From a virus, in IMG/VR virus record IMGVR_UViG_3300017788_000034, positions 1 through 52,088 of that record: a stretch of 52,088 bases of DNA; one strand, given 5' to 3'. Position 1 is the stretch's first letter. The number at the start of each line of letters is the position of its first letter. A model generated the notes under the pieces. That model was not told the DNA's origin. It did no database searches and saw nothing but the letters and a program-made list of their open reading frames with translations. The position numbers and the translations under genes are program-made. Positions 4,318 to 36,100 of this stretch are shown here, piece after piece.

Positions 4318-4945
4318 TGTTAAACTGATTTCTGTTACACCCGATGCAGAAAAGACAATGGCATATGTTGCTAGAGTGTCTAACCCTAGTAACCAAGATA
4401 ACGAAAACTACGCAGGGTTATTGCGTTATTGTATTAAGCATAATCATTGGTCTGTGTTTGAACAATCTCATATGACACTGGAGATTGAAACCTCTCGTGG
4501 TATCGCAGCTCAGATTTTGCGCCACCGTTCATTTACATTCCAAGAGTTTTCGCAACGCTATGCTGATACTAATCTGTTAACAGGAGATATTCCTGTACCA
4601 GAATTGCGTCGTCAAGATGATAAGAATCGTCAGAATTCTACTGATGATCTTGAAGGGTATCTAAAACTTGTTCTTGAGACAGAAATTCAAGAGCACTTCA
4701 TCCGTTCTAACAACCTCTACAAGCGTCTTCTAGAGGCGGGGGTAGCAAAGGAGTGTGCAAGGTTTGTGTTGCCGTTAGCAACCACCACACGTCTCTACAT
4801 GACTGGCTCGTGTAGGTCATGGATTCATTACATTGATCTTCGCTCAGCACATGGAACTCAAAAAGAACACATGGTCATTGCTGAGCAGTGTAGAGAAATC
4901 TTTAAGGAACAGTTTCCGAAGGTAGCAGAAGCACTAGAATGGTGA
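4301..4945 (+). CDS. thyX: Flavin-dependent thymidylate synthase
   Basis: 214 residues, a normal ThyX size. It makes dTMP from dUMP using methylene-tetrahydrofolate and FAD/NADPH. The ThyX signature RHRSFTFQEFSQRY (residues 74-87) is complete with Arg74, His75, Arg76, Ser84 and Arg86. Further family features are HWSVFEQSHMTLEIET and, toward the C-terminus, ARFVLPLATTTRLYMTGSCRSW. The start at 4301 (MTTHSNVKLISVTP) is preferred because the upstream extension to 4265 lies within the previous gene and looks non-homologous. With the glutaredoxin it supports DNA precursor supply during infection. Confidence 0.95.
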   Translation: MTTHSNVKLISVTPDAEKTMAYVARVSNPSNQDNENYAGLLRYCIKHNHWSVFEQSHMTLEIETSRGIAAQILRHRSFTFQEFSQRYADTNLLTGDIPVPELRRQDDKNRQNSTDDLEGYLKLVLETEIQEHFIRSNNLYKRLLEAGVAKECARFVLPLATTTRLYMTGSCRSWIHYIDLRSAHGTQKEHMVIAEQCREIFKEQFPKVAEALEW

Positions 4946-16176: not shown

Positions 16177-16184
16177 AATAAATA
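16177..16184 (+). promoter_or_regulatory. Late promoter element (AATAAATA)
   Basis: AATAAATA fits NATAAATA and lies just after the stop of the previous gene, 21 bases before the ATG at 16205. An internal late promoter for the second half of the hub block is plausible. Confidence 0.5.
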
Positions 16185-16204: not shown

Positions 16205-19200
16205 ATGTCATCGGGAACAGTTAACGCGACATCCACATACTCACCAGGAAAGGGAATGTCTTTTGCTAAAGACATTGGATCTCGTGTGCTTGCCGCAGCT
16301 CAATCCGCAAAAAACGAGAAAAAATTACAAGAAAAGATTGAAGCAGAAGGCGGTGAGGTTCCAGAGAGTGCTAAAAAAGGATTGTTTGGTAGGGCACTTA
16401 AGCAGGAATTTGTTACAAATCCTATTAATGATTTAAAGAAAAGTTTTAATAAGAAATTATCTGGCGCTGCTAATGCAGTAGGGTTTTTTGGTAGCAAAGG
16501 TAGAGCACTAGAAGATAAGATGTTGGGGAAAAAAATCTCTATCAAGAAAGGAGGATTTGACAGGTCTGGATATAAAAGAGCTCAAGGTGATGACGATGAT
16601 AGTGGAGGAGTCGGCGGCGGTGGTGGTGCTGGCGGCGGTGGAGTTGCCACATTAGGTGCTCTAGTTTTAGATGTCCAAGCAATCGCCTCTGCTGTTTCAT
16701 CAATGCAGGGACTGATTAATACTCAAATGATTATCTCCTCTAAGATGTCAGATTCTTTGGGAGAAATTAAAACCATTTTAGGAGAACAAGTATCAATTCA
16801 ACAACAAAGAATTGAAAATGAAGAGAGAGCAGCGATGGAAGCATCGTTAGAAGCATCTCAGCAAGTATCTGGAACTAGTAAAGCAACATCAACACTTACT
16901 GAAGGTGGTGGATTACTTGGTATGCTTGGTGATTTACAATCTTTATTTGGCATACTCAAATCATTGCCAGCAATGTTCATGGGATTATTAAAAGGTATTT
17001 TGTCTAAGATTCCTGGTGGTAAATTTTTACTTGATAAATTTGGTGGTAATGCTGCTAAAAAAGCAGCGGGAGAAGTAGCAGAAACAGGAGCAAAAGGATT
17101 ACTAGGAAAAATTTTGAGACCCATTTTTAAACGCATACCTGTTATTGGTGGTTTGATAGATTTCGCTGTCAGTTTAGCACTAGGAGAACCAGTTGGTAGG
17201 GCGGCAGCAAAAGCAGCTGGTGCTATGCTTGGTGGCGCTCTAGGCGGTATTATCGGATCGGTTGTGCCAGGACCAGGAACTTTTGTTGGAGGTCTCCTAG
17301 GTGGCATAGCTGGCGACTGGGTAGGTAGTAGTTTATATGATGCTATTACTGGTGCTTTTGGCGCAAAATCAGAAGAGAAAATGGCATCAGGCGGAGTGAT
17401 GATCGGTGAGGCAGGTAAAGAAGCTGTTGTTGATTTAAATTCTGCCGAAGGTAAATCACAACTGGGTGGCGGCAGTTCTGCTGTGGATTCGGCTGGGCAA
17501 TCTTATTACGGTGCTATTGCTGGTAGCACTCTTGCTGTCACTAAAGAATTTATTGAGGGTATGGGTCCGATTGGTGCTGCTGTTGCCCCAGTTATACAGG
17601 ATGATATTGCTAAGTTGGGGCAAACATTTGAATTACCTGCTACAGCTATTAAGATGTCTGTGGGTGGAGCAGGATTACAACCAGTAGCAGGAGCAGAAAA
17701 GAAAGGTGAAAAATTCTTAGAAAAATTGGTGACAGGATCACTAGAAAAAATTGGCAAAAAGAAAGAAAAAGGTAAAACATCTGGCGGAGGTGGCGGCGGC
17801 GGCGATGGCACACCCCCTGGTACTGATCCACCTCCAGCGCCGCCAGCGCCGCCAGGTAATGTCAATCAACCAACTGGAGGTGGCAAATCTAACTTTACTT
17901 TTGGTGATAGTATCGCATCTGGGTTAGTTGGGAGGCAAGGCGCTAATGGACAGACAGTAATGGATGCATCTGGAATAAGTAAAGTTGGAGCAAGTCCAGC
18001 AGATGTGTTAGGTCAATTACAAGCTTTTGATCAGAGTAAACTTAAGGGGAAGACAGTTAGATTATCTTCTGGTATTACAAACAATCCATCTGACTTGAAG
18101 AGTGTAGAAGATCAAATAAAATATCTTGTTAGTGTGGGTGCTAAGGTTCAACTAGTTGGAGTTACTAATACACCGCCACAAAAAGGAACAACATACGGTC
18201 ATTTAGAAAAGTCTTTAGCTGGAATGAATGATAAATTATCAGCTCTAGCAGCTAAGTATGCCGATAAAGGAGTAATGTTCTTGGGTGGATTCAAACCAGG
18301 ATCCGATGGTATTCATCCAGCAAATGCATCTGAGTTAAATTCATCTTACAATGTTGATGTGCAGCCAGGCGGAAAAGTTGGCGCTGCTTCTGGTATTACT
18401 GTTACTTCCAATGGCAATGGTGGAAACAAAAGAATGGAACCAGGACAAACTTATGGTTTTGATAGTTTACATGCACATCATAGTGATGAAGGTAGAATGA
18501 GAGTTTATAAGGGGGTCGAAACTGGGGTGCCGAAAGATTATGGGATGGGAGTAGCACCACACTACATGCCATCTGGTCCAAATGGACAAATACCACTTCC
18601 TGTTGCTGGAAAAGTTTTAACTAGAGAGTGGGATAAACAAACTGGATATGGCAGAACTGTTATTGTTGAAACTAATTTAGGTAAAATGCAGTTTTCTCAT
18701 TTGAGTAAGTTTGGGAAGTTTGAAGTTGGCGATCAACTATCAGCTGGAACAATAATCGGTGTTCAAGGTGGGTCAGGTAGTACTGAAACTACTTACGCTG
18801 AGCATCTTCATTTAAATGCATCCAAGAAAGGTCATGAAGCATTCGTAAACTTTATTACATCTGGCAAACCAACAACAGGTGTTACTTCGGATGATACTGA
18901 TTCACCTGGAAATGAAGACGAAGGGAACAATCAATCCGAACCAGAAGATCCATTCACTGCGATGGAATCTGGATTGAAAGAAATGTTAGCGGGTGCCATG
19001 GTGATGGGAGGAAATCCCAAAGACAAAGCAGAATTTGACAAACTTCTAAAAGAAGCAAATGAATCAACTGCCGTTACTAACATGTTTAGTACAGGTAATG
19101 TAACCACTCCAACTACTGCACCTCCTTCACAAAATCAGCGAGGGCGCATAGCGACTGGTGCGTCCGCAACCCCAACCCCATCAGTTGTTCATGTTCCTGT

Positions 19201-19288
19201 TGGGTCCAGCTCTCCATCATCTTTAAGTGGAACAGCAAATCCAGGGGCAGGAACGCCTCACGCTTTAGTTCCATTGAGACCAGCATAA
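16205..19288 (+). CDS. Second tape-measure-like tail protein with SGNH-hydrolase-like and M23-like domains
   Basis: 1027 residues. It has a basic N-terminus, a Gly-rich linker (about 135-150), a helical coil (about 160-220), and hydrophobic Gly-rich segments at 240-275 and 320-385 (LGGIIGSVVPGPGTFVGGLL). The tape-measure signature GGVMIGEAGKEAVVDL lies at about 396-411. A Pro/Gly hinge follows, then an SGNH-like domain with GDSI (from 567) and the closing DGIHP (701-705; Asp701, His704). An M23 endopeptidase-like domain has HLSKFGKFEVGDQLSAGTII and the zinc motif HLHL (His867, His869). The first zinc motif (around HAHHSD, 756-761) is not the usual HxxxD. It probably digests cell wall or envelope polymers during infection. 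Confidence 0.7.
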   Translation: MSSGTVNATSTYSPGKGMSFAKDIGSRVLAAAQSAKNEKKLQEKIEAEGGEVPESAKKGLFGRALKQEFVTNPINDLKKSFNKKLSGAANAVGFFGSKGRALEDKMLGKKISIKKGGFDRSGYKRAQGDDDDSGGVGGGGGAGGGGVATLGALVLDVQAIASAVSSMQGLINTQMIISSKMSDSLGEIKTILGEQVSIQQQRIENEERAAMEASLEASQQVSGTSKATSTLTEGGGLLGMLGDLQSLFGILKSLPAMFMGLLKGILSKIPGGKFLLDKFGGNAAKKAAGEVAETGAKGLLGKILRPIFKRIPVIGGLIDFAVSLALGEPVGRAAAKAAGAMLGGALGGIIGSVVPGPGTFVGGLLGGIAGDWVGSSLYDAITGAFGAKSEEKMASGGVMIGEAGKEAVVDLNSAEGKSQLGGGSSAVDSAGQSYYGAIAGSTLAVTKEFIEGMGPIGAAVAPVIQDDIAKLGQTFELPATAIKMSVGGAGLQPVAGAEKKGEKFLEKLVTGSLEKIGKKKEKGKTSGGGGGGGDGTPPGTDPPPAPPAPPGNVNQPTGGGKSNFTFGDSIASGLVGRQGANGQTVMDASGISKVGASPADVLGQLQAFDQSKLKGKTVRLSSGITNNPSDLKSVEDQIKYLVSVGAKVQLVGVTNTPPQKGTTYGHLEKSLAGMNDKLSALAAKYADKGVMFLGGFKPGSDGIHPANASELNSSYNVDVQPGGKVGAASGITVTSNGNGGNKRMEPGQTYGFDSLHAHHSDEGRMRVYKGVETGVPKDYGMGVAPHYMPSGPNGQIPLPVAGKVLTREWDKQTGYGRTVIVETNLGKMQFSHLSKFGKFEVGDQLSAGTIIGVQGGSGSTETTYAEHLHLNASKKGHEAFVNFITSGKPTTGVTSDDTDSPGNEDEGNNQSEPEDPFTAMESGLKEMLAGAMVMGGNPKDKAEFDKLLKEANESTAVTNMFSTGNVTTPTTAPPSQNQRGRIATGASATPTPSVVHVPVGSSSPSSLSGTANPGAGTPHALVPLRPA

Positions 19289-19292
19289 AATT

Positions 19293-20723
19293 ATGGCAAA
19301 CGAATCTGCTCCAAAAGAAAATTACTTTGATATAACTACAGACGTTGTACTCACTGATTTTAATAACAAAACATATACATTATCAGGAAGTAACGAACAA
19401 GTATCAATACAAAGTATTATCATTTATGAGTCATTAGAATCTCCATATCTAATTGGAGAAATGGTTATTGTTGATAATGGTATTAACTTAATTGGAACTA
19501 TACCAATTACTGGTATGGAAAAAATTACTTTTGGTATTAAAACTCCATATTTTACAGACACAGAATACAAGTATGAGTTTCGTATATGTGCGGTAAGAAA
19601 TAGAACTGCTGGTGGTAAGTTACAGGGATATACATTTGATTTAATTTCATACGAAGGTCTACAAAACGAGGCGCTAAGAGTTGCTAAAACATATTCAGAT
19701 TATGGACAAAAAATAGTAAAAGACATTTTAGATATTAATTTTAAAACTAAAAAGAAATTAAATGTTGAAGACTGTAAGTATAAAATGAAATTTGTTCCAA
19801 GAGGTCAAAGACCATTTGAATTAATTTATAGTATACTGAGTAAATGTATACCATTTTCTGCTTCACCTAGCAATAACAATACCTCGAAAAGTTCTTTACC
19901 AGCAGCAAATACAGGAGGAGCAACAGGAGCAACGGATGTAAATGTATCAGAAACTATATCAGGCAGTGCTGGGTATTTTTTCTGGGAATCTTATGATGGA
20001 TATAATTTCAAATCTATCGATGCTTTATGTGATGGTCCTGTAAAAGAAACATATATTTATCAGGTGGCTAAACTAGACAATGGTGCTGATTCTGGAAGAA
20101 TTATTCTTGAGTATAGTTACAGCAATGAGATTGATGTAATGAAAAAAATGCGTTGCGGAACCTATAGTTCTATGATGGTATTCTTCAATCCATCAACGGG
20201 ACAGTATGAAGAGTACATATTTGACATTGATAAATCATATAAAACCATGAAACATCTAGGAAAAGATGAAAAAATACCAGAAGGACCTAAGCAACTGTCT
20301 AAATATCCTACGAGGATAATGACACAATTTTTAGACCACGAGACATTTTATAATGGTTCCGACGTTGCCTCACCAGATCCAAAAGATAATTCTAAATCTG
20401 GATCTTCCTTTCCTGATTATAAAAAACATTACACCGCTCAGGCAGTAAGTAGATTACTACTTCTGGAAAATCAGCAACTATCACTGGTAACACATGGTAA
20501 TTTAAAATTGAGAGCAGGAGACAAAATTAGTATTTTACTTCCAAATTTTTCTGTAGATTCGCAAAGAAAAACTGAACGATATGACAAGCAACACAGTGGA
20601 AATTATCTAATCAAAGAAATATCTTATGAATTTTATCGTGAAAAAAATGGGCAAGAAAATTTTACGGTTAGTAATATGAGATTAGTTAGAGATTCATTTG
20701 GATCATTCACTTTAGATGTTTAA
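19293..20723 (+). CDS. Baseplate hub protein, gp27-like
   Basis: 476 residues (T4 gp27: 391). A beta-rich N-terminal half opens YFDITTDVVLTDFNNKTYTL, then SIQSIIIYESLESPYLIGEM and MVIVDNGINLIGTIPITGME, which is typical of hub proteins that form the tube-like trimer on which the spike sits. The segment FFWESYDGYNFKSIDALCDG is a further hub-type motif, and the C-terminal LKLRAGDKISILLPNF with HSGNYLIKEISYEF is the second barrel. Low-complexity Asn/Ser/Thr linkers lie around 190-225. It is directly upstream of CP12-like and gp5-like genes, the same order as T4 hub genes would suggest. Confidence 0.68.
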   Translation: MANESAPKENYFDITTDVVLTDFNNKTYTLSGSNEQVSIQSIIIYESLESPYLIGEMVIVDNGINLIGTIPITGMEKITFGIKTPYFTDTEYKYEFRICAVRNRTAGGKLQGYTFDLISYEGLQNEALRVAKTYSDYGQKIVKDILDINFKTKKKLNVEDCKYKMKFVPRGQRPFELIYSILSKCIPFSASPSNNNTSKSSLPAANTGGATGATDVNVSETISGSAGYFFWESYDGYNFKSIDALCDGPVKETYIYQVAKLDNGADSGRIILEYSYSNEIDVMKKMRCGTYSSMMVFFNPSTGQYEEYIFDIDKSYKTMKHLGKDEKIPEGPKQLSKYPTRIMTQFLDHETFYNGSDVASPDPKDNSKSGSSFPDYKKHYTAQAVSRLLLLENQQLSLVTHGNLKLRAGDKISILLPNFSVDSQRKTERYDKQHSGNYLIKEISYEFYREKNGQENFTVSNMRLVRDSFGSFTLDV

Positions 20724-20940
20724 GAAAATGAAAAACATACAAGATACTATCAACAATGATAAAAAAATATTAGACGACCCGCTAGTATCGGCACAATCTC
20801 GTCGTCATGCTGAAGAAGAACTAGGACAACTACAAAGATACCACGAAAGACACCCAGAAGAAGAGGAGACGCCATCACCGTTAGCATTATACTGTGATGA
20901 TAACCCCGACGCAATAGAATGTAAGATTTTTGACGTATGA
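20716..20940 (+). CDS. CP12-like small protein inside the baseplate operon
   Basis: 74 residues (70 from the second ATG at 20728). The C-terminus LALYCDDNPDAIECKIFDV closely matches the C-terminal GAPDH-binding loop of CP12 (xLEVYCDDNPxAxECRVYDD), including both cysteines. The middle (HAEEELGQLQRYHERHPEEE) resembles the CP12 AWDxVEELQ helix. The N-terminal Cys pair that binds PRK in full CP12 is absent. In cyanobacteria CP12 inhibits the Calvin enzymes GAPDH and PRK in the dark; cyanophage CP12 is thought to shift carbon toward the pentose phosphate pathway. It overlaps the hub gene by eight bases and the gp5-like gene by four, so it is expressed with structural genes. Confidence 0.72.
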   Translation: MFKKMKNIQDTINNDKKILDDPLVSAQSRRHAEEELGQLQRYHERHPEEEETPSPLALYCDDNPDAIECKIFDV

Positions 20941-23723
20941 TACAAGAATTCCTAGGGCGCTCTAATTTTGCTGGTCGTGACGGTTTCTACTGGTGGGTAG
21001 GTCAGATAGAAACACAGAAAGGCACGCAAGCAAAAGCAGATGACAGATACAAAGTCAGAATCGTAGGGCAGCATCTTAAAGACTGTAATGCTGTTGCCTA
21101 TGAAGATTTGCCTTGGGCTATTGTAATGATGCCCGCTACTGCTCCGAGAAGAGAGGGTGGTACAAGTTTTCAAAGCGTAGAATATAAATCTGGAGACTGG
21201 GTTATTGGTTTCTTCCTAGATGGTAGTGACGGACAACAACCAGTTATAATGGGATCTATCGGGCAGCAGTATAAAGCATCCGAAACTCATACAGGAAAAG
21301 AAAAACCTGCTTCAAACTGTCTGGCATTCACTACATTTTTAGATCCAGATGTAAATACAAACGCCGCTACTCCAGCAGCACAAGCAGAGGCAGTTAAATC
21401 TGGTGGTGTCGATGGAACTAATAATCCATCAGGAGCAAAACCAGATTTAAATCAACCACCAAACGTTTCTAATGAAGCAGCGTCTCAATTATTGTTAGGT
21501 ACTAAATGTTGTAACAGTGAAACGAATCCAGCTGGAGAATACTTCTGTGTTGAAGTAGCAGATGCTAAATGCGAAAGCGCAGAAAATGATAAATCAAAAT
21601 TTGAAAGTATTCTAACTGAATTATTTGGAAACATATCAAATAATGGAGGACAATTAGGTACTAGTCTTGTAGGCAAATACACTGGAAAACTATATGATTA
21701 TGTTGATATTGCTCAAGGATATGCCAATAAGTCAGTAAGGCTAGCAAGTTCTATGGTTGCTAGAGTTAAGGGAGAAATGTTTGCTTATATTAAACAGGGA
21801 GCAAAAGCAATTATTGATTTCTTATTAACTACTGAAGTTGTTGATCCTGAAGGAGCAGAAACTTTTGTTGGTCCATATGCTAATCCAGATGAAGCAGTTA
21901 AACCCGCAAAGAAAAGAGTAGGAAGACTCAGAGGATTGACTGCGTGGATTAACGAACAATTAAAAAATGTTAACTGTGTGATGGATGATTTAGATGAAAG
22001 ACTTAGAGAATTTATAGAAGGATTAATCTTTGGAGCACTTGACCAAGTTATCAATGCTGCTCAGTGTTTTATTGATGAGCTTATTGGAGACATTTTTGAT
22101 CAGATTGCTTCGTTTATAGAAGATGCTATCAATGCTATCCTTGGTCCTCTTCAAGCACTACTAGCTGTGATAGCAAGTCCTCTTAATATTCTTGGTGCTG
22201 CCATTCAACAAATTTTTGATATTCTTGGCATCACTTGTGGTGGATCTGATAGTAAGTGTTCAAGTGAAGAGCAACTTAAAAATTGTACTGGACCTTGTGG
22301 CAAAGAAAAAGATAAGAATTTCTTAGATGATTTGTTGGCAGCTATCGAAGATGGCAATCTCGACACAGGTACTGGTTCTTGTTCTGAATCTTTAACTTAC
22401 CCACCAGTTGATCCTACTGTCGTAACAATTGTAGGTGGCACTCCAAATCCAAAAACATTTACTGGAAGTAAACCAAAAACCATAGCACCACCAGATAAAG
22501 ATGATACAATAGATCCAGATATTTTTGGTGGCAATAATAAGAAGAAGACTGGCACACTTAAATCTCCCTCAAGTAAAGGGACTATAACTCCATCAAAAAT
22601 CACTCCAAAGACTTCAATACCTTTACCAATTAACACTTCATTTGTTAATCTTGCCAACAAAGGGTTGTTATTGATTCCCAATAAAGGAAGTTTAAAAACT
22701 AAATTATTTGGTGGTATGAATCCATCTGTTTCTGGTCTTGGAAATACATTTACAGCTTGTTTTGATAATAGTTTATTAAAAATAAAATTGAAAGGAAAAA
22801 CAACTACCTCATTCGAACCTATTATAAACGTAGTAGAACAACTAGATTACAGTTTATCTGTTGACAAGTTAGTTGTATTTGAAAAAGATACAATCACATT
22901 TACATTAGTTGCCAACGGTGCTCCTGTTGCTGATGGAACGGTGTTCAACTATGCTATGTTTGGAGATATAGATGTAGATGATTTTGTTGACAAGAAAACA
23001 ACAGGAACTATGAAAATGTTTGGTAATATTGCTACGACAAAAATTACGATTGCCGATGACGCACTTGATGAACCAGTAGAGCAGGTTACATTCAACGTAT
23101 TAGAAGCATCTAGAAGTGTTGCGTTTAGTATCGCTGCTTCTGATACAACTAAGAAAACACCAGAGCCTGATAGTCCAATCGAACCAGCATTTACTCCCCC
23201 AGTGTTAGGAAAGGTAGAAGTTTGTGGCGATGGTAGAATTATGGATGTTCCCATTGAATTTAGAGGAGATGCTTATCTTACTCCACCGATTGTAATAATT
23301 CGTGGTGCTGGATTTGGAGCATCAGCTAAAGCAGAACTAGATCGAGATGGATATCTTACGAAGATTAGAGTACAAAGATCTGGAACAGGATATGCTCCAA
23401 ACAGAGTCAAACAAAATTGTGTTATATCTAATTTTGTTATGGTAACTCCTGGGTCTGGATATTATAGAAAACCAATGGTTTATGTTGATGGAAGATCTAA
23501 CGTTGCTGAAGCAATTACAGATGATAACGGAATAATAATTGGAATTGACGTGATTGATAAAACAAAAACTTTTGATTGTACTCCACGAGTAGAAATCTTT
23601 GGAGGAAATGGTTTGGGTGCTAAAGCAATAGCAATTATGGAATGTAGAGATGAACCTTCATTCACTATATTCCAAACAGAACTAGCTCCTTCTGGTGTTG
23701 ACTCTGTTGTAGATTGTCCGTAG
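20937..23723 (+). CDS. gp5-like baseplate hub protein with N-terminal OB-fold and Calx-beta-like module
   Basis: 928 residues. Residues 1-120 match the T4 gp5 OB-fold: FYWWVGQIETQKGT, YKVRIVGQHL, YEDLPWAIVMMPATAP, VEYKSGDWVIGFFLDGSDGQ and PVIMGSIGQQY. No T4-lysozyme-type domain follows. Instead come helical segments with amphipathic repeats (about 330-430), a Cys-rich stretch (ITCGGSDSKCSSEEQLKNCT), a Lys/Thr/Pro linker, a Calx-beta-like module (about 638-735; YSLSVDKLVVFEKDTITFTL) and a C-terminal beta domain with two GxxLTKI...GTGY-type repeats. It is the hub ring around the spike. Overlap with the CP12-like gene is four bases. Confidence 0.75.
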   Translation: MIQEFLGRSNFAGRDGFYWWVGQIETQKGTQAKADDRYKVRIVGQHLKDCNAVAYEDLPWAIVMMPATAPRREGGTSFQSVEYKSGDWVIGFFLDGSDGQQPVIMGSIGQQYKASETHTGKEKPASNCLAFTTFLDPDVNTNAATPAAQAEAVKSGGVDGTNNPSGAKPDLNQPPNVSNEAASQLLLGTKCCNSETNPAGEYFCVEVADAKCESAENDKSKFESILTELFGNISNNGGQLGTSLVGKYTGKLYDYVDIAQGYANKSVRLASSMVARVKGEMFAYIKQGAKAIIDFLLTTEVVDPEGAETFVGPYANPDEAVKPAKKRVGRLRGLTAWINEQLKNVNCVMDDLDERLREFIEGLIFGALDQVINAAQCFIDELIGDIFDQIASFIEDAINAILGPLQALLAVIASPLNILGAAIQQIFDILGITCGGSDSKCSSEEQLKNCTGPCGKEKDKNFLDDLLAAIEDGNLDTGTGSCSESLTYPPVDPTVVTIVGGTPNPKTFTGSKPKTIAPPDKDDTIDPDIFGGNNKKKTGTLKSPSSKGTITPSKITPKTSIPLPINTSFVNLANKGLLLIPNKGSLKTKLFGGMNPSVSGLGNTFTACFDNSLLKIKLKGKTTTSFEPIINVVEQLDYSLSVDKLVVFEKDTITFTLVANGAPVADGTVFNYAMFGDIDVDDFVDKKTTGTMKMFGNIATTKITIADDALDEPVEQVTFNVLEASRSVAFSIAASDTTKKTPEPDSPIEPAFTPPVLGKVEVCGDGRIMDVPIEFRGDAYLTPPIVIIRGAGFGASAKAELDRDGYLTKIRVQRSGTGYAPNRVKQNCVISNFVMVTPGSGYYRKPMVYVDGRSNVAEAITDDNGIIIGIDVIDKTKTFDCTPRVEIFGGNGLGAKAIAIMECRDEPSFTIFQTELAPSGVDSVVDCP

Positions 23724-23735
23724 GAGATATAAAAA

Positions 23736-25109
23736 ATGGCAAGTAATAATTCAGCAGCAAATTATTTAAGCGCATCTGAAGCATATGGTAACTTTGAAGG
23801 AGCAAAACCATTTCCTGGAACGGAAAAACTATCAAAAGAAGTAGGACAAATTAATAGCTTAGGTGGGAGCACAGGGTTTACTGCTACTACAGATTTACAA
23901 AAGAAACAGGCAGAATCAACTGACGGTGGTTGTGGTACATCATTTACTACTGCTACTGATCCAAAAAATATTAGTGTAAAACATGAAATAAGTGGTAACT
24001 TTATAGAAGTAGCAACCGTCAATGATCAAGGAGACCCACAAAAGAAATGGATTGCTTCCAATGGCACCTCAATGACCTTTGCCGAAGATGGTAGTGTCAT
24101 ATATACTACCTCAAAAAGAGAAGGAGATCCAAATTCTGGTAGGTTTGATGTTTGCTCTCATGGTAGTACAAGATTTAAAATAGGTGAGGCTTTATTAATT
24201 GTAGTTGATAATAAAAATAAAGTTGTTGCTGCCAAAGACGGTGGCAAAGAAGGACCAGCAATGTCTATTACTGTGTATGGAAATATAGATGTGAGTTCGG
24301 TTAGTGGTGATATAAATGTAAAAGGAAAAAATATTAATTTAAACGCGGAAAATGAACTGAAATTAAATGCTGGGTCAAAAATATCATTACTATCAGGTAA
24401 AGGTAAAGGTCAAAACGAATCAAAAGAAACTACAAAAGGAAAAGAAGAAGCTAAATCTGAGTATGGTGGAGTAGTTGAAGTTAAAGCAGGTGATTTTACA
24501 GTTGGTGCATTAACGACCAGAAAATCTTCATCAATGGATTATAAAATAATTGAAGCGGAAGGAGCAGTTTTAAGTACAAACCAGTTGGCAAACTATGGTA
24601 TTCAATCTCCAGGATCATTTACTTTAGATGTGGGGGGAGACTTCCACGAGAAAATTGGTGGATTAAAAAGAACTGATATTTCTGCTACAGCAAACCCAGC
24701 AACAACAATTTTTCCTGGTCAACTAGATGGGTGGATTACTAATATTGGTGAAGTAACTGGAAATGCGTTCTTCCTGGACGCCGCTGGCGGTGGTATTAAT
24801 ATGTATACTAGGTCAGGAGATGTTATACTTCAAACTGAGTCTGGTGGATTCATTGTTGATTCTAAAACAGCTGGTGGCGTTGCTGGTGTTGACATTGATA
24901 AAAAGGGTGCGGATGGAAAACCTTTAGGATTAACGCCAGGAGTTTATCTCAGAGGATATAAGAAAAGTGTGTACATAGGAACCGATTCAGGGTCCGATAT
25001 CAGTATTGCTCTAGGTGCAGCAACAGCAGTAAAGACAGTTACAAATGGTATAAAAATATCAACAGCAAAATTAGAAATTAAAAATACTACTGGAATTTAT
25101 TTAAATTAG
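23736..25109 (+). CDS. Baseplate central spike protein, gp5 C-terminal/VgrG-like beta-helix
   Basis: 457 residues. It has short repetitive beta strands typical of triple-stranded spike helices: VYGNIDVSSVSGDINVKGKN and INLNAENELKLNAGSKISLL (about 190-225), later SPGSFTLDVGGDFHEKIGG and SGDVILQTESGGFIV, ending KISTAKLEIKNTTGIYLN. This repeated G-x-I-x-V/L pattern corresponds to the C-terminal part of T4 gp5 and of VgrG. The spike pierces the outer membrane when the tail contracts. It is a separate gene here, directly after the OB-fold gene. No tip Zn/Fe protein (PAAR) is visible next to it. Confidence 0.75.
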   Translation: MASNNSAANYLSASEAYGNFEGAKPFPGTEKLSKEVGQINSLGGSTGFTATTDLQKKQAESTDGGCGTSFTTATDPKNISVKHEISGNFIEVATVNDQGDPQKKWIASNGTSMTFAEDGSVIYTTSKREGDPNSGRFDVCSHGSTRFKIGEALLIVVDNKNKVVAAKDGGKEGPAMSITVYGNIDVSSVSGDINVKGKNINLNAENELKLNAGSKISLLSGKGKGQNESKETTKGKEEAKSEYGGVVEVKAGDFTVGALTTRKSSSMDYKIIEAEGAVLSTNQLANYGIQSPGSFTLDVGGDFHEKIGGLKRTDISATANPATTIFPGQLDGWITNIGEVTGNAFFLDAAGGGINMYTRSGDVILQTESGGFIVDSKTAGGVAGVDIDKKGADGKPLGLTPGVYLRGYKKSVYIGTDSGSDISIALGAATAVKTVTNGIKISTAKLEIKNTTGIYLN

Positions 25110-25225: not shown

Positions 25226-25894
25226 ATGCATCATTTAATGATAGAAGATTTTCTTGATTTTTGGACATTACAGAAGATTAAAGAAAATTTAAATAGTGCT
25301 GAAGATGTTGATTGGCAAGATGGCAGAAAAACTAATTTAGATCACGAAGGCAAAATTAATTTTAGGTTATTTGAAAAAACTAAAATATTTGAAAATATTG
25401 CTAATCTTGTTGATATAACTATAAAAAATGATAATAATTTTAGATCTTACACATTAGTAAAATATCTTTTTAGTCCCCAAGTTACTAAAACAGTGCCTGG
25501 TGGAAAATATGAAAAACATTTAGATGTATTGTATAGACCAGATCCTTCTAATATATCTAACGTGCTGAGAAGCGATCTTTCATTTACTTTATTTTTAAAT
25601 GATCCTGAAGAATATGAAGGTGGAGATTTAGTGATTGAAGATATTGGAAAATTTAAATTAAGATCTGGATCAATTATAGTATATCCTTCAAATAAAATTC
25701 ATGAAGTAACTGAAGTCACTTCTGGTGAAAGATATGTTTTTGTTGGGTGGATAGAAAGCATAATCAAAAATAACACCCATCGTAATATATTATATTCTTA
25801 TGATAAATTATTAGAAGATATAGAATTTTCGACAGAAAAGAAAATAAAATTAGAAGAATTGCGTACTAATTTATTACGAGAATTTGTAGATTGA
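25226..25894 (+). CDS. 2-oxoglutarate/Fe(II) oxygenase, PKHD-type hydroxylase-like
   Basis: 222 residues. The double-stranded beta-helix motifs are present: YEKHLDVLYRPDP (iron ligands His and Asp of HxD), RSDLSFTLFLNDPEEYEGGDLVI, SGSIIVYPSNKIHEVTEVTS (distal His) and GERYVFVGWIES with the Arg that binds 2-oxoglutarate. This layout is that of PiuC-type PKHD hydroxylases, which occur often in cyanophages; the substrate is unknown, perhaps a protein of the virion or host. It lies between the spike gene and the tRNA cluster with no clear promoter of its own. The catalytic residues are complete. Confidence 0.85.
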   Translation: MHHLMIEDFLDFWTLQKIKENLNSAEDVDWQDGRKTNLDHEGKINFRLFEKTKIFENIANLVDITIKNDNNFRSYTLVKYLFSPQVTKTVPGGKYEKHLDVLYRPDPSNISNVLRSDLSFTLFLNDPEEYEGGDLVIEDIGKFKLRSGSIIVYPSNKIHEVTEVTSGERYVFVGWIESIIKNNTHRNILYSYDKLLEDIEFSTEKKIKLEELRTNLLREFVD

Positions 25895-25919
25895 CAGGTC
25901 AGCAAAAAACCTGTATAAT
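25891..25919 (+). promoter_or_regulatory. Consensus sigma-70 type promoter for the tRNA/cpeT unit
   Basis: TTGACA (25891-25896), a 17-base spacer and TATAAT (25914-25919): both boxes are perfect. The spacer region carries an inverted repeat, ACAGGT (25894-25899) and ACCTGT (25909-25914), overlapping both boxes, which may be an operator. It would start host-polymerase transcription near 25926, ahead of the small gene at 25943, the two tRNAs and cpeT. Confidence 0.9.
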
Positions 25920-25942
25920 AGCAATGTAGTGGCTTCAGACTT

Positions 25943-26125
25943 ATGGTTAATTCAACCGAACAAGTTCTTGACAAAATAACGGTAGACCTCTATAATAAGA
26001 AGGTAGTTGTAGGGGGGTCTGAAGGTTCTAGAGTTGTGTTCAAATGTTCGTCAGTTACAGAACTGATTAATCTGATGAACGAGTGTAAAAGGTTGCTTAA
26101 AACTGACAGCGTTATCGTAAGATAA
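25943..26125 (+). CDS. Small unknown protein
   Basis: 60 residues beginning MVNSTEQVLDKITVDLYNKK, with a predicted strand-helix ending SVTELINLMNECKRLLKTDS. It lies about 20 bases behind a perfect host-type promoter, so it is likely a strongly expressed early gene. No family is recognised and no clear ribosome binding site is seen before ATG 25943. Confidence 0.7.
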   Translation: MVNSTEQVLDKITVDLYNKKVVVGGSEGSRVVFKCSSVTELINLMNECKRLLKTDSVIVR

Positions 26126-26248: not shown

Positions 26249-26515
26249 ATGGAATACATACTCACGCAAGAATATGTCTTTTATATGGGACAAGTTGTTC
26301 GTATGTATTTTATTAATGGTCTTCCGTATACGTTTGATGAATTACCTCATATAATTCAAGATCACCCATCTATTCAAACTGAAGCTCTTAGTCATCAAGA
26401 TTTTGACGATGAAGATTTATATAGATATTCAAACTATCTTATAATGGAAGAATTACATCCTTTGCTATTTGATGTTAATTTAAAAAATCCAGAGTTGTTA
26501 CCTAAAGATGATTGA
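26249..26515 (+). CDS. Unknown acidic protein, start region in a hairpin
   Basis: 88 residues beginning MEYILTQEYVFYMGQVVRMY and rich in acidic and aromatic residues; no domain is recognised. ATG 26249 directly follows the hairpin at 26215-26247, whose 3' arm holds the ribosome binding bases, so translation may depend on opening the stem. It overlaps cpeT by eight bases, which suggests coupling of both. Confidence 0.7.
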   Translation: MEYILTQEYVFYMGQVVRMYFINGLPYTFDELPHIIQDHPSIQTEALSHQDFDDEDLYRYSNYLIMEELHPLLFDVNLKNPELLPKDD

Positions 26516-26993
26516 CGAATTTTGTGAATACTTTGAAGGAATATTTGACAACAAAATACAAGCAATGCATAATCCGAGACATTTTGCTATGATTGAGTTA
26601 GTCCATACTCTTTATGGTAAACATAAATTTCGTTGTATTCAACGTTTTTATGTTGATAAACGACAGTATCGTAATACGGTACTTTCTGTTTATGAACAAG
26701 ATTCTAAAATCCTTGTAAAAAACTTTAAGGAGAAAAATCCAGAAACTGGAGAATTGACATATTTAAAAGGATGTGATACAATATTCGAGAAAATAGGTGA
26801 AGAATTTCACGGCAAAAACCTTTGTAAAACCTGTTATGTTACTTGGTCTGGAAAAGAAACCTATCTTCAAACTCAAAGTGTCCTCGGAAAAAATTACTAT
26901 AACGTAATTGATAAGGGATATGATGTAAATACTGACGAACATATATGGGGTTCCTTTAACGGGGAATTTCAGTTTGTCAAATCGCCTGAGTAG
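26508..26993 (+). CDS. cpeT: CpeT-like phycobiliprotein chromophore lyase
   Basis: 161 residues, slightly shorter than host CpeT (about 200). Family features: FCEYFEGIFDNKIQAMHNPR at the start, then FxHIRLV-type FAMIELVH, RNTVLSVYEQDSKILVKNF, LKGCDTIFEK, CKTCYVTWSGKETYLQTQSV and the ending GYDVNTDEHIWGSFNGEFQF. CpeT/CpcT lyases attach bilins to phycobiliprotein cysteines; the gene is known in marine cyanophages and likely supports light harvesting during infection. Its last 10 bases, with the stop, lie inside tRNA-Thr (26984-27057), an unusual overlap. Confidence 0.92.
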   Translation: MIDEFCEYFEGIFDNKIQAMHNPRHFAMIELVHTLYGKHKFRCIQRFYVDKRQYRNTVLSVYEQDSKILVKNFKEKNPETGELTYLKGCDTIFEKIGEEFHGKNLCKTCYVTWSGKETYLQTQSVLGKNYYNVIDKGYDVNTDEHIWGSFNGEFQFVKSPE

Positions 26994-27151: not shown

Positions 27152-30100
27152 ATGCCATTAACAAGGTTAGATAATCTATTATCAAGTAAGACTGGTAAGT
27201 ACATTTATGTTTCTCCTGATGACTTTAACGCAAGTGACGCATTAGATAACAGAGGTAATAGTCAATTACGTCCTTTTGTCTCTATTCAACGTGCTTTCTT
27301 AGAAGTAGCACGTTTTTCGTATGTTCCTGGAGTTAATAATGACAGGTTTGACCAGTTTACGATTATGCTGGCGCCTGGTACTCACTATATTGATAATCGT
27401 CCTGGTGACACGGATACATCAAATGTTCCCATATTCAATTATGATGCGGTAACAGATACTTGGAATGACCCCGCTATTTTTGACTTAGGAAATCCTAATA
27501 ATATTCTGTATCGTTTTAACGGGCGTGATGGTGGTTGCACCATTCCTAGAGGTACATCTCTTGTAGGTACAGACCTTCGTAGAACACAACTTCGTGCTCT
27601 TTATGTACCAGATCCAGCTGATGTTGATGTTCCTCGTACATCACTATTCAATGTAACTGGTGGTTGTTATTTTTGGCAGTTTACTATTCTTGATGCTAAT
27701 CCAGAAAATGGACCACTGAACGGACTAGCATATAGTCAACCTGGGTCTACACAAAAGTCAATACCACTGTATTCCCACCACAAGATGACAAACTTTGTCT
27801 ATGCGGACAAAGAAGATTTGAGTTTACTTTATAGAAAAATTTCAAAATGCTTCAGTAAGTATCAAGAAGCTATTGATGATGTTTACACTGATGAAGTTGG
27901 TAGAATTCAGGATACTTGGTCTTCTACACAATCATATATCGTAAATAATAATGTAGTCTTTGGCGGTGAAGCATATAAGGCACTCGCTAACTCTACAAAC
28001 AAAAGACCAGACTTAGAAGATACATTTTGGGAACGTCTGAACACAATTTCGCGTGAATTTGACTTCAGAATTCAAGAAAACCGAATTGTCGGACCTCTTG
28101 CTGATACCGTTCAATTAGATGAATTTATTGTATCAGAACCTTCAGCTGGATTGCTGGATGTTACAGTAAGAACAAAAATTAATCATGGATTTTTTCCAGG
28201 TCAATATGTTGCTATTGACAACACTGGATTAAATCGTAATTTGGAGGGTGTATTCCAAGTTTACAGTATTAGCACTACAAATCCTAAGGAATTTAAGTAT
28301 CGTATTGTAACTACTGCGAGTGCTGTTGGGCTAGTTCCTGGAGCATCTATTACTCCTAATTCTGCCGCTACTGTATTGGCAGAGATAGACAGCGTTGAAT
28401 CAGCATCACCTTACGTTTTCAACGTTTCTATTCGTTCTGTGTGGGGTATTTGTGGTATTTGGGCGGATGGAAGAAAAGCCACTGGTTTCAAATCAATGGT
28501 TATCGCTCAGTATACGGGTGTTTCGCTACAAAAAGATGACCGTGCGTTCATTCGCTACGATGAATTTAGTAACACTTGGAATCAAGCACCACTAACTGAT
28601 GCGTTTGCTACAACTCCTTATCACATTAAGGGTGACGCATATTGGAAAGATGATTGGAGAAACTTCCACGTTCGTGCTTCGGATGACTCCTTCATTCAAA
28701 ACGTTTCGATCTTTGCTGTAGGTTTTGCCGATCACTTCCTGCTTGAGTCTGGTGGTGACATGTCCATCACCAACTCCAACTCGAACTTTGGTAATACTTC
28801 GATGCATTCGAAGGGATTCAAAGGATTTGCGTTTAACCAAGATAAAGGTGGATATATTACTGATATTATTCCACCAAAAATTCTTGATGAAAGTGTCCAA
28901 CCAATTAAAACAAGTTATTATCCAATTGATGTTCAGTTATCCAAACCATCAACGAATAATAACAGACTTTATATAACTGGAGATAAGGCAAATAATTTCC
29001 TATCTCGTCCCGCCGCAAGTATCAATGGATATAGATTAGGTGCTAGAACATATATTAATGATGATAAGAGTGAAAAGATTTATGTTAATACTACCGCTGA
29101 TCAAACATCTGGCGAAACTGGTTCTACTACAAAATCTGCTGTAGTTTATCCACAAGGATTTAAAATTTGGTCAGCAGCACTTGATACATTAAGTCCTGCT
29201 AATTTAGGTATTGGTGATTTTAACCAAGATGGTACGCCAAATACTGCTGCTGATACTCTCTTATTCAATCTTCGTCAAGATGCTGCTAATTTAATTGATG
29301 CTAATAAAGTCTTTATTCAAGCAGAAGCATTTGGATACATTCTTGAAAAATATCCATACCTTCAAACTATTCCATACGTTAATCCTAACATCACGTTTGA
29401 AACTGGTCGTTTTAGAGATGCTCGCAACTTAATTTTAGCTAATCGTCAAGAAATTATTGACTTTTCTTACAATCAAATGTTGACTGCTTTCCCAACATTT
29501 GTTCCACCTAGCGTAGATAAGTGTAAGAGAGATATTGGAATTATTGTTGATGCTGTTGCCGCTGACTTATATGATGGCGGTAACGCTCATGTGGTTGAAG
29601 CAACCGAATCATATTTTGATGCAAATGGAAATCCAATTGTTGATGGAGTTGTTGGTGAAGTAACTCAGACCATATATGCTTTTAATCGTGCCAGAGACTT
29701 GGCTAAAAAAGCAATTTCCAATTTACTTGGAAATACTTCTCTTGTTCCAGTGGTTTCTTTGACATCTAGTGGAACCACTATTACGGTTACAACATCTTCT
29801 GCACATAATCTAAAAATTGGTCAGGAAATTAATATTGGTGGCGCCACCCAAAGTGAGTACAACGTATATAAAACTGTAGTTTTGTCGTCTGGTCTTACTC
29901 CAACACAATTCCAATATAAGGTATCTGTTGCCCCATCTGTAACTGTCGCAACTGGTGCTTTCTACGTTTCTAAAATTACTATTGACCCAGAAAACACCAT
30001 TAATCCAGCTGGTAGATATAAAGATGCTGCTAGACTTGTTACTGCCAATAGAAGGGAAATCGTTGATCGTGCAGCAGCTGAAATTGCTATTCAGCATCCA

Positions 30101-33100
30101 GATTTCTTCTATCCTGGCGATCCACAAACAACCGCAACATCACGTTTTAAAGATGGTTATAGATTAATTCAACAGAATCGCCGTCAAATTGTTGATCGTG
30201 CCGCTGCCGAAATCGCCATTCAGTTCCCTGATTTCTCCTATCCTGGTGATCCAATAACAACTGCTGTATCTAGATATAAAGATTCCTTTAGACTCATTCA
30301 ACAAAATAGACAAGAAATTGTTGATCGTGCTGCTGCTCAAATTGCAGTCGAACATCCAGATTTCTCCTATCCTGGCGATCCAGTAACAACTGCTGTATCT
30401 AGATTTAAAGATGCTTATCGTCTAATCCAACTAAACAGAACAGCAATTATTGATACTGCGTATGCTGCTATTGCTACGGCATTTCCAACTTTCGTCATCA
30501 ACGCAACAAATACAGATAAGTGTAAGAGAGATATTGGTATCTTCGTCGATTCTATATCTCTAGACATCGCTCAAGCTGGAGGAAATGTATATACTCGTAA
30601 ATTTGTTCTTTCATATTTTAATAACAACACTCCTATTACTAATGGTCTTGTAGGTGAAGAGGCACAATCAAATGCTGCCTTTAATGCGGCTTGTGAAGAA
30701 ATGAAAAAAGCAGTCACAAACCAATTAGCAATTAAAGATCTAACTATCACTTCTGGTGCTGCTACCTTTGGTGGCAGTGGTGGCACTATCGCCAATAACA
30801 GCCCAAATGCTTGTGATGATGTTCGTTCTGCACTTGATAGTTTAACACTTATCGTAACGACTCGCATTGCTGCTGGTAATATAACTGGTCTTCCTGCTGA
30901 ATCAATATCAACTACTGTTCCTGCTGGAGAAGCTAAGTGTAAAAGAGATGTTGGTATCTTCGTTGATGCTTTATCTTTGGATATTTCTAATGGTGGTGGT
31001 AATGTATACAGTCGTCAATTTGTTCTTCAATATTTCAATAACGGTACTCCTATCAGTAATGGATTAGTAAATGAAGAAGCACAATCTGTAACTGCTTTCA
31101 ACAAAGCAAGAGATGAGATGAACAGAGCGATTACTAACCAGTTGTTCGCTAAAGATCTTTCAATTACTGCAGACCCAACACCTGGATCTGGATCTGTATC
31201 GAATACAAATTCCACCTCCTGTGCTAACGTTCAAGCAGCTATCACTAGCCTGGCATTACTTGTTACTGCTCGTGTTACCGCTGGTAACATAACTGGTCTT
31301 CCTGCTGAAACAGTATCAACTACTATTCCTGATGGAGAGGCAAAATGTAAGAGAGATATTGGTATCTTTGTTGATGCGGTTTCACTTGATATCGCACAGG
31401 GCGGTGGCAATGTATACAGTCGTCAATTTGTTCTTCAGTATTTCAATAACGGTACTCCTATTAGTAATGGATTAGTAAATGAAGAAGCACAATCTGTAGC
31501 TGCTTTTGACATGGCTCGTGACATGATGAAGTTAGCAATTACTAATCAGTTGTTTGCTAAAGATCTCACTGTCACTTCTGGTCCTACTAGTGCTGGTGGA
31601 ACTGGCGGCAATGTGAGCAATAATAGTCTTACTGCTTGTTCAGATGTTCAAACTGCCATTACAAACCTAACAGCAATTATTACCGCAAGAGTTACTGCTG
31701 GTAACATAACTGGTCTTCCCGCCGAGACAGTATCGACTACTGTTCCTGCTGGAGAAGTTAAGTGTAAGAGAGATATTGGAATCATTGTGGATGCTGTACA
31801 GCAAGATCTTTTCTGGGCTGGAAATGAATTCACCATTGCCGCAATTCGTGAATACTTTACCAGTAATAATGTTTTATTAACAAATGGTCTTGTTGATGAA
31901 ATTAATCAATCTATAACTGCTTTCAACGCTGCTGGAAACATGGTTAAGAAAGCAATCAATAATCAGTTGTTTACTAAGAATTTAGCACTATCTTCTGGTC
32001 CTGCTATCTTTGGGAGCGGCGGCGCTGTTGTTCCTAATAACAGCCCAACTGCTTGTGCTGACGTACAAGCGACAGTTGATACTCTATTTGGACTTGTGAG
32101 CACAACTCTTACTGCAGGTACGCTCTCATCTCTACCCGCAATCAATAATGGAAAATGGGATTGTGCTAACGTAAGAACCGCAATCGACACACTATTCTTA
32201 ATTCTCACAACTGCTTTAAATACTAATAGTATTGCTGCTCTTCCACCCTCTAATCCTGGTCCTTGGAGTACTGTTAGTGAATCAAGCAAGTGCCGTAGAG
32301 ATATTGGATATATTGTTGAGTCTATTACCGCTGACCTTCGTTTGGGTGGTAATGAAAATACAATTAATGCTGCTGAAGCATATTTCACTGGAACTGGTCA
32401 ACAAACTTTATCTGGTACACTTGCTTCAACTGGTGTTATCACTGGATTAACTAGCACTGCTAATTTACTAGTTGGTATGGCAGTATCTAAAACTTCTGGT
32501 GCTGGTTCATTTGGTGTTAACCCAACAATTGTTTCGATTGATGGAGTAACACAAATTACCGTCACTCAAACTTCAGGAACAGTAACTCCTGGTGCTATTT
32601 CTTTCATTGCTAACCAACTTGATTACATTGAAAAAGAAAGAGTTGAAACTCTTGAATCTTACGATTATGTAAGAAACTTAGCAATTTCTGCTATGAGAAA
32701 TCATAATACCTATGTAAGTGGTAATGCTACTGGTAACTCAGCAATTATTACTGTACCTAGTACTAATGGTCTTATTATTGGAATGTCAGTTCGCAGTGTA
32801 ACTACTATTCCAACTAATACTGGTTCTCTCAACACATTAACAACAAATTACAATGATGAATTAGAAGAAATTAAAAATGGTCGTGTAGTTCCTAAAGCGA
32901 CAAATTATACTACTGCCATTCCTTCAAATGCTTACATCATGAAAATTGGTGATGGAAATAACGGGTTGAACGCAAATCAAATTCAACTTGGAACAAAAGG
33001 TTCTAAATTTGATTCTGGTGTACTTGTAACTGCTAGTTCTTCTTTGGGAACAAATACGCCTACTAAGTTCTTCTTCCAATTAGAAACTGGTATTTGGGCT

Positions 33101-36100
33101 AATGCTATCAAACCATCAGTCGATCTTCAAGTACTTCAAGATTATGATTATGCCGCAACATATGGAGAATGCTCTTCAGTAGTTGAAAATATTAATACAT
33201 TCTTTACTACTTTTAGTACCGTTATTAATAATGGTATTGGTAGCATTGCCAGGAAAACTTCTGAACTTAGCACAGGAACATTTGCCCAGAGAGCAACAAT
33301 CTTTACTTTAACTGATACTTCTTCTGGTGCTTCTCCTACAAACCCTCACCACCTAGAGACGGGAACGCCTGTAAGACTTGTTCCTCGTGCTAAGGACGGT
33401 GTTACGGTAGATAAGCGTTTTATCAGACTTCCTAGAGGATTTGACACAAATACTGTGTATTATATTATTGCTCCTGGTAGAAAGACAGATCCATACGATT
33501 ATTCTAATACTACTAGATTTGATGGAACTACTGTTGGTTCTTACCAAAGTGTTATGCTTGCTAGTAGCGCAGAAAACGCTGCTACTGGTATATACATCTA
33601 TTCCTCAGAAACAGAAAGTATTGATGAAAATGTAACAATTGATGTTTATCAATATGTTCTTGATGTTAAGTATGACCTTAACCAATACACCACTTCAAGA
33701 GGTGATGGAACTACATTGGTAACAGAAGAACCACATGTTTTTGACCTTCCAAACTCTTCTTGGAATATAAATGATAATCAAAAATATCAAGCAATCTTCT
33801 TCAAACCAATTGGAAATGGTACTTTGCCAACTGGTATTTCCTCCGCTAGAGAATACTATGCTCGTTATGTAAATAAACCAAATTTACCTGTTAACCGTCA
33901 GTTTGAAGTTTATGATACTCTAACTCAGGCTGTCCAAGGTGCTACTCCACTTACCTTCCCTGTTTTCACTGGTTCTTTCTATACTTTCTCAAACAAAAAG
34001 AGGTCTCCTCTTAGATTTGCTCCAGAAGCAGGTGCCTCTCTTTCTTTTGATGAAACAAAGCTTTATGTAAATAATAAATCAATATTTGCGGTTAATGACT
34101 ATGTTAGGGTAGCAGATGAATTTTTCTTTGTTACTGGTATTTCGACTACAGGTTCAGACCATCTTATTGTAACAAGATCAGTACTTGGATCATTCCCAGT
34201 TAGTCATTCGGTAGGAGCGGTTGTAAATAAGTGGAATTATAATAATACTTCAACTACTACTACTCTTGCTGAGACAGTAGATTTAGTAGAAACTATTTTT
34301 GACTTTACTTCTGTTTCAGGATTTGCGATTGGCGATTTTGTAAGATTAACTAATAATGTAACTACGTTGAATGAAGTAATTAAAATTACTAAGATTGAAG
34401 GTACTCAAGTTATAGCAGCTAGAGCACAATTAGGAACTGTAGTACAAGCACAATCAGGAACAATAACTGCTACTCGTCTATCTCTTACTGCTGCTTCTCC
34501 TGCTGTTACTACAACTCTTTCTGAAGGATATCCAAGACTTTTATCAGCAGCAGAAAGTGGTAATTATGCTGGTGGTACTTGGTATATCGGTACTGACTCT
34601 ACCAGACCTAACACCATTCTTGAAAGAATGCGTAAAGAAGACTTTTCTACTAAAGATAAAACTCCAGACACTTGGTTTGAAAGAATTGAAGACAGCAGAA
34701 CAAAAGAAGATCGTGTTTATAGATTACGTTATGTTATTCCTAATTATCTTAAGTCAGTTCGAGATCCTTTAAATGGATTTATTATTAAAGCTAGAAATGA
34801 CCAAACCAGAAGACTGTTACCACAAAAAATTCTAGTAAAACCAACTGCTAGTGGGTCAGATATTGCTGAACTTAGTATTCCCAACCAAGGAGCTGCGGTT
34901 ACAGGAAAATCTCCAAATAGAGAATATTTAGGATATACCACAGCAGAACACGGACCAAACTTTATAAGCCTTTATGATCCATATAATCCAGAGACTCTAT
35001 CTCAAATTGATGAGACACCTAAGTATAGAAAAAAGGTTACCACTGATTCTAAAGTAACTTTTTATGTTGAATCTGCCAGAAGAGTTTTATCAAAGGGTAG
35101 AGAATACTTACAATTAACGGTATTCAATATCGGTATTGAAGAGCAAGGATATAAAGAAAAACTGTTCACTACTGTCAGAATTGACGCACCACAAGGAGGA
35201 ACAGGACAATTTGTTTCTAATATCGCCAACCTAGCAAATACAGATACATCTAATATTATTACCTGGGATGGCGCATGTAAAGGTAAAGCACGAGTTCACG
35301 CTTACTTTGATTACGAGAATCAACATTATCTAATTCTTAAAGATATTACTGGAGTATCAAAATTAGAATTTGATTATAATGGAGCTTCAACAGTATTCAC
35401 ACAAGGTACTGTTTCTGCTACTCTACTTTCTCCACCAAATGAAGGACGTTCTGATATTAAGAATTACCTCTACGCAGTAGAAGGGTCAAATGCCTATACT
35501 ATGACTCCTGGAGATACTTTCCAAGCAGAAAATGGTAACTATACAATTGCTAGTGTAGAAGATACGGAAGATTTTGAAGATACTTTCTATATTTTTGATA
35601 TCAATGAAGTTCGCAGAAGAATTCCTGGTCAGCAAGACGGAGTTTATTATCTAACTTGTCTACGTGGCGATATTAGACCATTCCCAACTGGTGCTGGTGT
35701 TGGTTTAAACTTTAGAGATATGAAATTCTCTCAACCAGTATCAAAACTTTATCCTGAATTCTATAAGAATGACCCAGAATGGTATAAGCAACTTGATTCT
35801 GCTGCTGTAGACTCACCAGAAACTATATCTGCTGCGGATAACTACGTCCACGGATTAGTTACTGTTAACGATTCTAAAGCTAGTGTAACTAGAGAAGGTA
35901 TACTAGACCTTGTTAAAGATAAAGGTTCTAAGAGATATAACTTCACGGGAACAACTGAAATTAAAGCTTTACCTGGCGGTGCCTCTGCTGGTTCTGAAGC
36001 AAGAAGAATTCCTATTTGTGGTAATTCACCATATCCAACTGAAAAACGAATATACGTAGAACTTCGTAGACCATCTATTGCTCGTTCAGGTAACCACACG

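Follow-up and report, generated by a model that had tools for sequence, protein, structure and literature searches.

A cp12 gene between two baseplate hub genes of a T4-like cyanophage and its predicted late timing

The stretch of DNA analysed here, a 52-kb virus record, is referred to as the window, and positions are those of the window unless another phage is named. Its left part carries genes for a gp32-like ssDNA-binding protein, PhoH and thymidylate synthase, followed by wedge, tube and hub genes, a lysin gene, further hub genes, tRNAs, CpeT, a very large ORF and tail-fibre genes. The very large ORF (27152-41050) encodes 4632 aa, with ATAAATA 45 nt upstream and the tail-fibre genes after it. 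Judged by the T4-like hub, gp32-like and tube genes and by CpeT, the window comes from a T4-like cyanophage. The features of the locus are the following.

16178..16184, + strand: ATAAATA, T4-type late promoter core, 27 nt before the gene at 16205
16205..19288, + strand: large lysin-like tail protein, first gene of the operon (phrog_12490, phrog_1047, phrog_7767)
19293..20723, + strand: gp27-like baseplate hub protein, T4-GC15 family (phrog_350, E=2.5e-95; AF2 model)
20716..20727, + strand: upstream in-frame ATG opening the longest ORF, unlikely to be used as start (unconserved, ACG in L007)
20728..20940, + strand: cp12 coding sequence (stop included), most likely 70 aa (PF02672, E=1.2e-10; start from relatives; AF2/Foldseek)
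20937..20940, + strand: ATGA overlap of the cp12 stop and the gp5 start (from the sequence)
20937..23723, + strand: gp5-like baseplate hub/tail lysozyme family protein (phrog_1922, E=5e-171; Gp5_OB)
23736..25109, + strand: hub/spike-like gene (phrog_4540, weak DUF2345)
25891..25996, + strand: two perfect TTGACA-N17-TATAAT promoters opening the next, early-type block (tRNA-Leu, CpeT-like)
26508..26993, + strand: CpeT-like gene, with the early-type promoters between cp12 and it (phrog_488, E=1.6e-32)

The longest ORF (20716-20940, + strand) has 74 codons and a product ending in LALYCDDNPDAIECKIFDV; a check of the letters and of the ORF found it as the original prediction had described it. The start of cp12 is most likely ATG 20728, 4 nt after the stop of the gp27-like gene, because the CP12 relatives begin with M[EK]NIQ and because the nearest relative, locus L007 (CP12 89–90% identical), has ACG at the position of ATG 20716 and ATG at that of ATG 20728. 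Overlaps had been proposed on both sides of the gene. Only the one with gp5, the 4-nt ATGA, is genuine; the upstream one is an artefact of the longest ORF, ATG 20716 being unconserved. Pairwise dN/dS is ∼0.16 between the cp12 genes of the window and L007, and its median is 0.15 in the tightly packed class of loci (cp12 13 nt or less after gp27), indicating that CP12 is under purifying selection. This value and the relatives found in 378 phage records exclude a chance ORF.

The proposed placement between gp27-like and gp5-like genes was confirmed. Foldseek matched the AF2 model of the upstream product (pLDDT 83) to T4 gp27 (1k28_D, 1wth_D) with E ∼1e-16, and the downstream product matches Gp5_OB and phrog_1922. 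Virions of S-SM1 contain orthologues of both neighbours, T4-GC15 and gp5 (PMC3037559).

Over residues 8–73, the cp12 product scored 42.4 bits with PF02672, for which the cut-off is 22.7 (E=1.2e-10), and it matched phrog_627 with 2e-21. The profile search suggested along with the original prediction thus gave a score far over the gathering score, and we conclude that the product is a true CP12, the known Calvin-cycle regulator of cyanophages. In hosts this small protein turns off carbon fixation, the family being known to bind and inhibit photosynthetic GAPDH (and PRK) depending on redox state. A profile of 30 phage CP12s aligned end to end with the solved CP12 of T. elongatus (6gfo, E=3e-9) and also matched other CP12 structures. 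The AF2 model of the window product (pLDDT 92) shows three helices and a C-terminal loop, and its top Foldseek matches are the GAPDH-bound CP12 chains 6gfo/6ghl, at modest E values of 0.04–0.08. In VIA-align, 6gfo reached a Z of 4.3, level with unrelated helical chains; the fold comparison therefore contributes little past Foldseek and the sequence.

As had been claimed, the C-terminus, LALYCDDNPDAIECKIFDV, holds a loop with a Cys pair. It has the form C-x3-P-x3-E-C and is accompanied by an acidic penultimate residue. The loop is kept in all 154 distinct phage CP12s (154/154), and the penultimate residue is D or E in 153/154. In Chlamydomonas, this acidic residue of CP12 contacts an arginine of the GAPDH cofactor site (PMC4436894). 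The last residue of the window CP12 is V rather than D or N, a point against the overall reading given below. With two Cys in all, the product lacks the N-terminal Cys pair, again in line with the original description; this pair, typical of the classical green-lineage form, was found neither in the window CP12 nor in the host collection (absent from 80/80 loci). The central AWD_VEE motif of the classical form is absent from the window CP12 as well, with RRHAEEEL in its place. Published CP12 classes permit the loss of AWD_VEE, and the CP12-C class needs no N-terminal Cys pair (PMC3906501). CP12s from Prochlorococcus and Synechococcus genomes also lack both features, whose absence from the phage protein was therefore inherited. 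That the N-terminal Cys pair was lost in the phages themselves is ruled out, since the CP12s of their picocyanobacterial hosts lack it too.

Compared with known proteins, the window CP12 has full-length homology to other cyanophage CP12s (T4-GC337/GC63, phrog_627; P-HM2, Syn9, Syn33, S-SZBM1), which have the same C-terminal loop and no N-terminal Cys pair. It resembles the picocyanobacterial host proteins (Synechococcus, Prochlorococcus; CP12-C type, PMC3906501) in length, in the missing N-terminal Cys pair and in the DP.LELYC..NP..ECR.YDD tail, but the central helix of the phage proteins has S..RRH, where the hosts lack RRH and have small indels. The two-disulfide CP12s (T. elongatus 6gfo, S. 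elongatus 3b1j, Arabidopsis 3qv1/6kez) share the C-terminal GAPDH loop and, in the predicted fold, the helical N-terminal part; unlike the window CP12, they carry both the N-terminal Cys pair and AWD_VEE.

A tblastn search found relatives of the window cp12 in 378 phage records, nearly all of them cyanophages, with one match per record; the gene is single-copy in the window too. Conservation in T4-like phages of non-photosynthetic hosts, named beforehand as an argument against a metabolic regulator, was not seen: non-cyanophage T4-like phages gave no match other than one in Pseudomonas with E ∼6. The gp27-like gene matches phages of Vibrio, Rhizobium, Pelagibacter and others, whereas cp12 does not. 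Genome-collection contigs labelled Euryarchaeota, Nonlabens or Rhodopirellula (L129, L130, L131, L138, L140, L207) encode phage-like CP12 as well; the RRH motif is present in those that were read, and the contigs probably belong to cyanophages and were binned with other genomes by mistake.

The order gp27-cp12-gp5 is widespread in Kyanoviridae and was found in no non-cyanophage record. In the first round of IMG/VR loci gp27 lies directly 5′ of cp12 in 23/23, and gp5 directly 3′ wherever the contig is long enough. Among named phages the order is seen in Syn9, Syn33, S-SZBM1, S-CREM1, S-T4, S-H38, S-WAM1, S-H9-1, S-SSM7, P-RSM1, S-SSM6b, S-8S56, S-MS29, DSL-LC02 and DSL-LC03, in some cases interrupted before gp5 by CpeT, tRNA or oxygenase genes. 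The window thus shares the order gp27-cp12-(cpeT)-gp5 with Syn9, Syn33 and many others, but its cp12 lies directly against gp5, whereas in many marine phages the two are separated by CpeT, tRNA or oxygenase genes. In the Synechococcus phages DSL-LC02 and DSL-LC03 from Dishui Lake a tail protein gene, a gene annotated CP12 in GenBank and gp5 abut as in the window; their CP12s are only ∼53–64% identical to that of the window, and extra lysin genes lie upstream. Other addresses are found in P-HM2 (by talC and psbA), P-SSM2, S-SRM01 and P-TIM68 (before wedge gp25). In P-TIM68 (4469-4728 of locus L038), GTAAATA stands at -32 of cp12, a late-type leader of the same kind at another structural address. 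The proposed comparison of gene position across cyanophages thus showed a recurrent hub address with four exceptions. Since Sullivan et al. (2010) had noted cp12 either near psbA or near gp5 (PMC3037559), the hub address was already known, and the tight packing of cp12 is a variant of it. The identity matrices of CP12 and gp27 correlate weakly (r=0.21), which does not show that the two have been inherited together for long.

The motif ATAAATA before the lysin-like gene places NTAAATA, at the distance that marks T4-type late genes, at the head of the window's operon. An operon-head motif lies at the same position in L007-L013, L016, L020 and L027-L029; in the window and its closest relatives it is 27–31 nt before the lysin gene. 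In Syn9, NTAAATA occurs ≤60 nt upstream of 15/39 structural genes and of 1/34 replication or metabolic genes (Fisher p=2e-4), the gene classes being our own, from the annotation, and covering a chosen subset of gene starts across the whole genome. It stands mostly at -22 to -46, and before cp12, gp17 of Syn9, CTAAATA is found at -33. Over distinct cp12 loci, NTAAATA lies at about -30 in 53/62 that have a leader after gp27 (shuffled sequences: mean 3.5, maximum 9), compared with 0/63 in the tight class. Where the sequence upstream of a tight locus is long enough, the motif mostly precedes gp27 or, as in the window, the lysin gene. S-PM2 has gp27 and gp5 without cp12, and TTAAATA in the 29-nt gap; this layout would fit an insertion of cp12 that separated gp5 from its putative late promoter.

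On the gp27 tree the tight and leader states switch ∼17 times, and 14 of the switches are forced by supported branches. Among 14 independent pairs across supported branches the motif went with the leader in ∼8, against it in 0 and made no difference in ∼6 (median p=0.008). NTAAATA is short, which calls for caution, and over the whole window CTAAATA and TATAAATA are not enriched; therefore only the position of the motif counts.

Early-type promoters follow cp12 and precede CpeT in the window. The two genes, which are neighbours in many phages, therefore apparently lie on opposite sides of a late/early boundary. A distance of 77 bp separates the two promoters at 25891-25996, which lie where an oxygenase gene ends and inside a small ORF (25943-26125). 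Elsewhere, ten loci (L003, L033, L035, L036, L041, L072, L089, L108, L116, L118) have a perfect or near-perfect TTGACA-N17-TATAAT after cp12. Its -35 box overlaps the cp12 stop, and the CpeT/oxygenase/tRNA block begins there, a compact late/early boundary.

Taken together, we consider it probable that the gene encodes a phage CP12 of the picocyanobacterial type, with the C-terminal Cys pair only, which would bind GAPDH, damp the Calvin cycle and be transcribed late from the hub operon. As an auxiliary metabolic gene sitting between two baseplate hub genes, cp12 would be transcribed from a late promoter within the late operon. It would be translated from a start nearly abutting gp27, its stop overlapping the gp5 start, and CP12 would be made alongside the hub proteins late in infection. 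The oxidised C-terminal loop and acidic tail would then occupy the cofactor site of host GAPDH, and the damped Calvin cycle would spare NADPH and ATP from the light reactions, presumably to the benefit of the phage. This mechanism, the most likely one, is in line with the model already published for phage CP12, the predicted timing being the new element. It also agrees with a comparison cited in PMC10665884, in which CO2 fixation was arrested faster by S-RSM4, which has cp12, than by S-PM2, which lacks it, though S-RSM4 carries zwf, gnd and talC besides cp12. Of the two options in the original prediction, the late-timed regulator is the one that the promoter layout of many phages supports. We infer from these motifs that cp12 at the hub address may be timed with the virus particles, apart from the other metabolic genes.

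An unlikely, though not negligible, alternative is that a promoter within gp27 or in the leader drives cp12 at the same time as the middle metabolic genes, the place of cp12 in the hub operon having no effect on timing. In P-HM2, RNA-seq classed cp12 as a highly expressed middle gene, as were all auxiliary metabolic genes of that phage (PMC5082946), and the window has a weak sigma70-like site (9 of 12) at 20508-20536. However, P-HM2 cp12 has another address, adjoining talC in the middle block, the strong TTGACA promoters of marine phages are 3′ and not 5′ of cp12, and the late motif is specific to position, as the leader and tight loci show. P-HM2 has ATAAATA 31 nt upstream of its middle-class cp12, and the motif alone is therefore no proof of late timing. 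In that leader (∼4960-5004 of L030), TTGACA directly overlaps ATAAATA, a possible double promoter.

The other option of the original prediction, in which the baseplate hub would have adopted the CP12 fold as a small component for structure or assembly, appears highly improbable. The close and conserved packing against hub genes on both sides, with overlapping starts and stops, would fit it, but the GAPDH-tail residues are invariant in phage CP12s, P-HM2, S-SRM01 and P-TIM68 carry cp12 off the hub, and S-PM2 has the hub genes without it. Virion proteomes, proposed as a check, speak against it as well: S-SZBM1 has the order gp27-cp12-...-gp5, and among its 30 virion proteins the gp27-like protein (_65) and gp5 (_61) were detected while CP12 (_64) is not named (PMC9146016), in a phage other than that of the window and for a small protein. 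The same list includes an 87-aa protein, and the absence of CP12 therefore need not be due to small size alone. From the virion list, the invariant tail and the copies off the hub, we conclude that a structural role is unlikely. It is also very doubtful that CP12 is made late in order to be packaged and delivered along with the DNA and to act as soon as the next infection begins. The late motif fits such packaging, and cyanophage virions have repeatedly yielded other metabolic proteins, namely cytidylyl/NMN transferases (PMC10665884, PMC9602691), but the S-SZBM1 virions gave no CP12, though a 70-aa protein may be missed.

Late transcription from the hub operon may extend beyond the window. We tentatively suggest that in most Synechococcus-type T4-like cyanophages cp12 is late, having repeatedly (at least 14 switches between two arrangements) come under a tail-hub late promoter, in contrast to the middle genes psbA, talC, zwf and gnd. 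If true, carbon fixation would therefore be shut in two steps, and the published timing, in which all auxiliary metabolic genes are middle, would fail for these phages. Phage CP12 is the main suspect in how cyanophages stop CO2 fixation with the light reactions kept running. Late expression at its common address would shift when the Calvin cycle is blocked during infection and would alter the purpose of the block, which would then provide energy for assembly and not nucleotides for replication.
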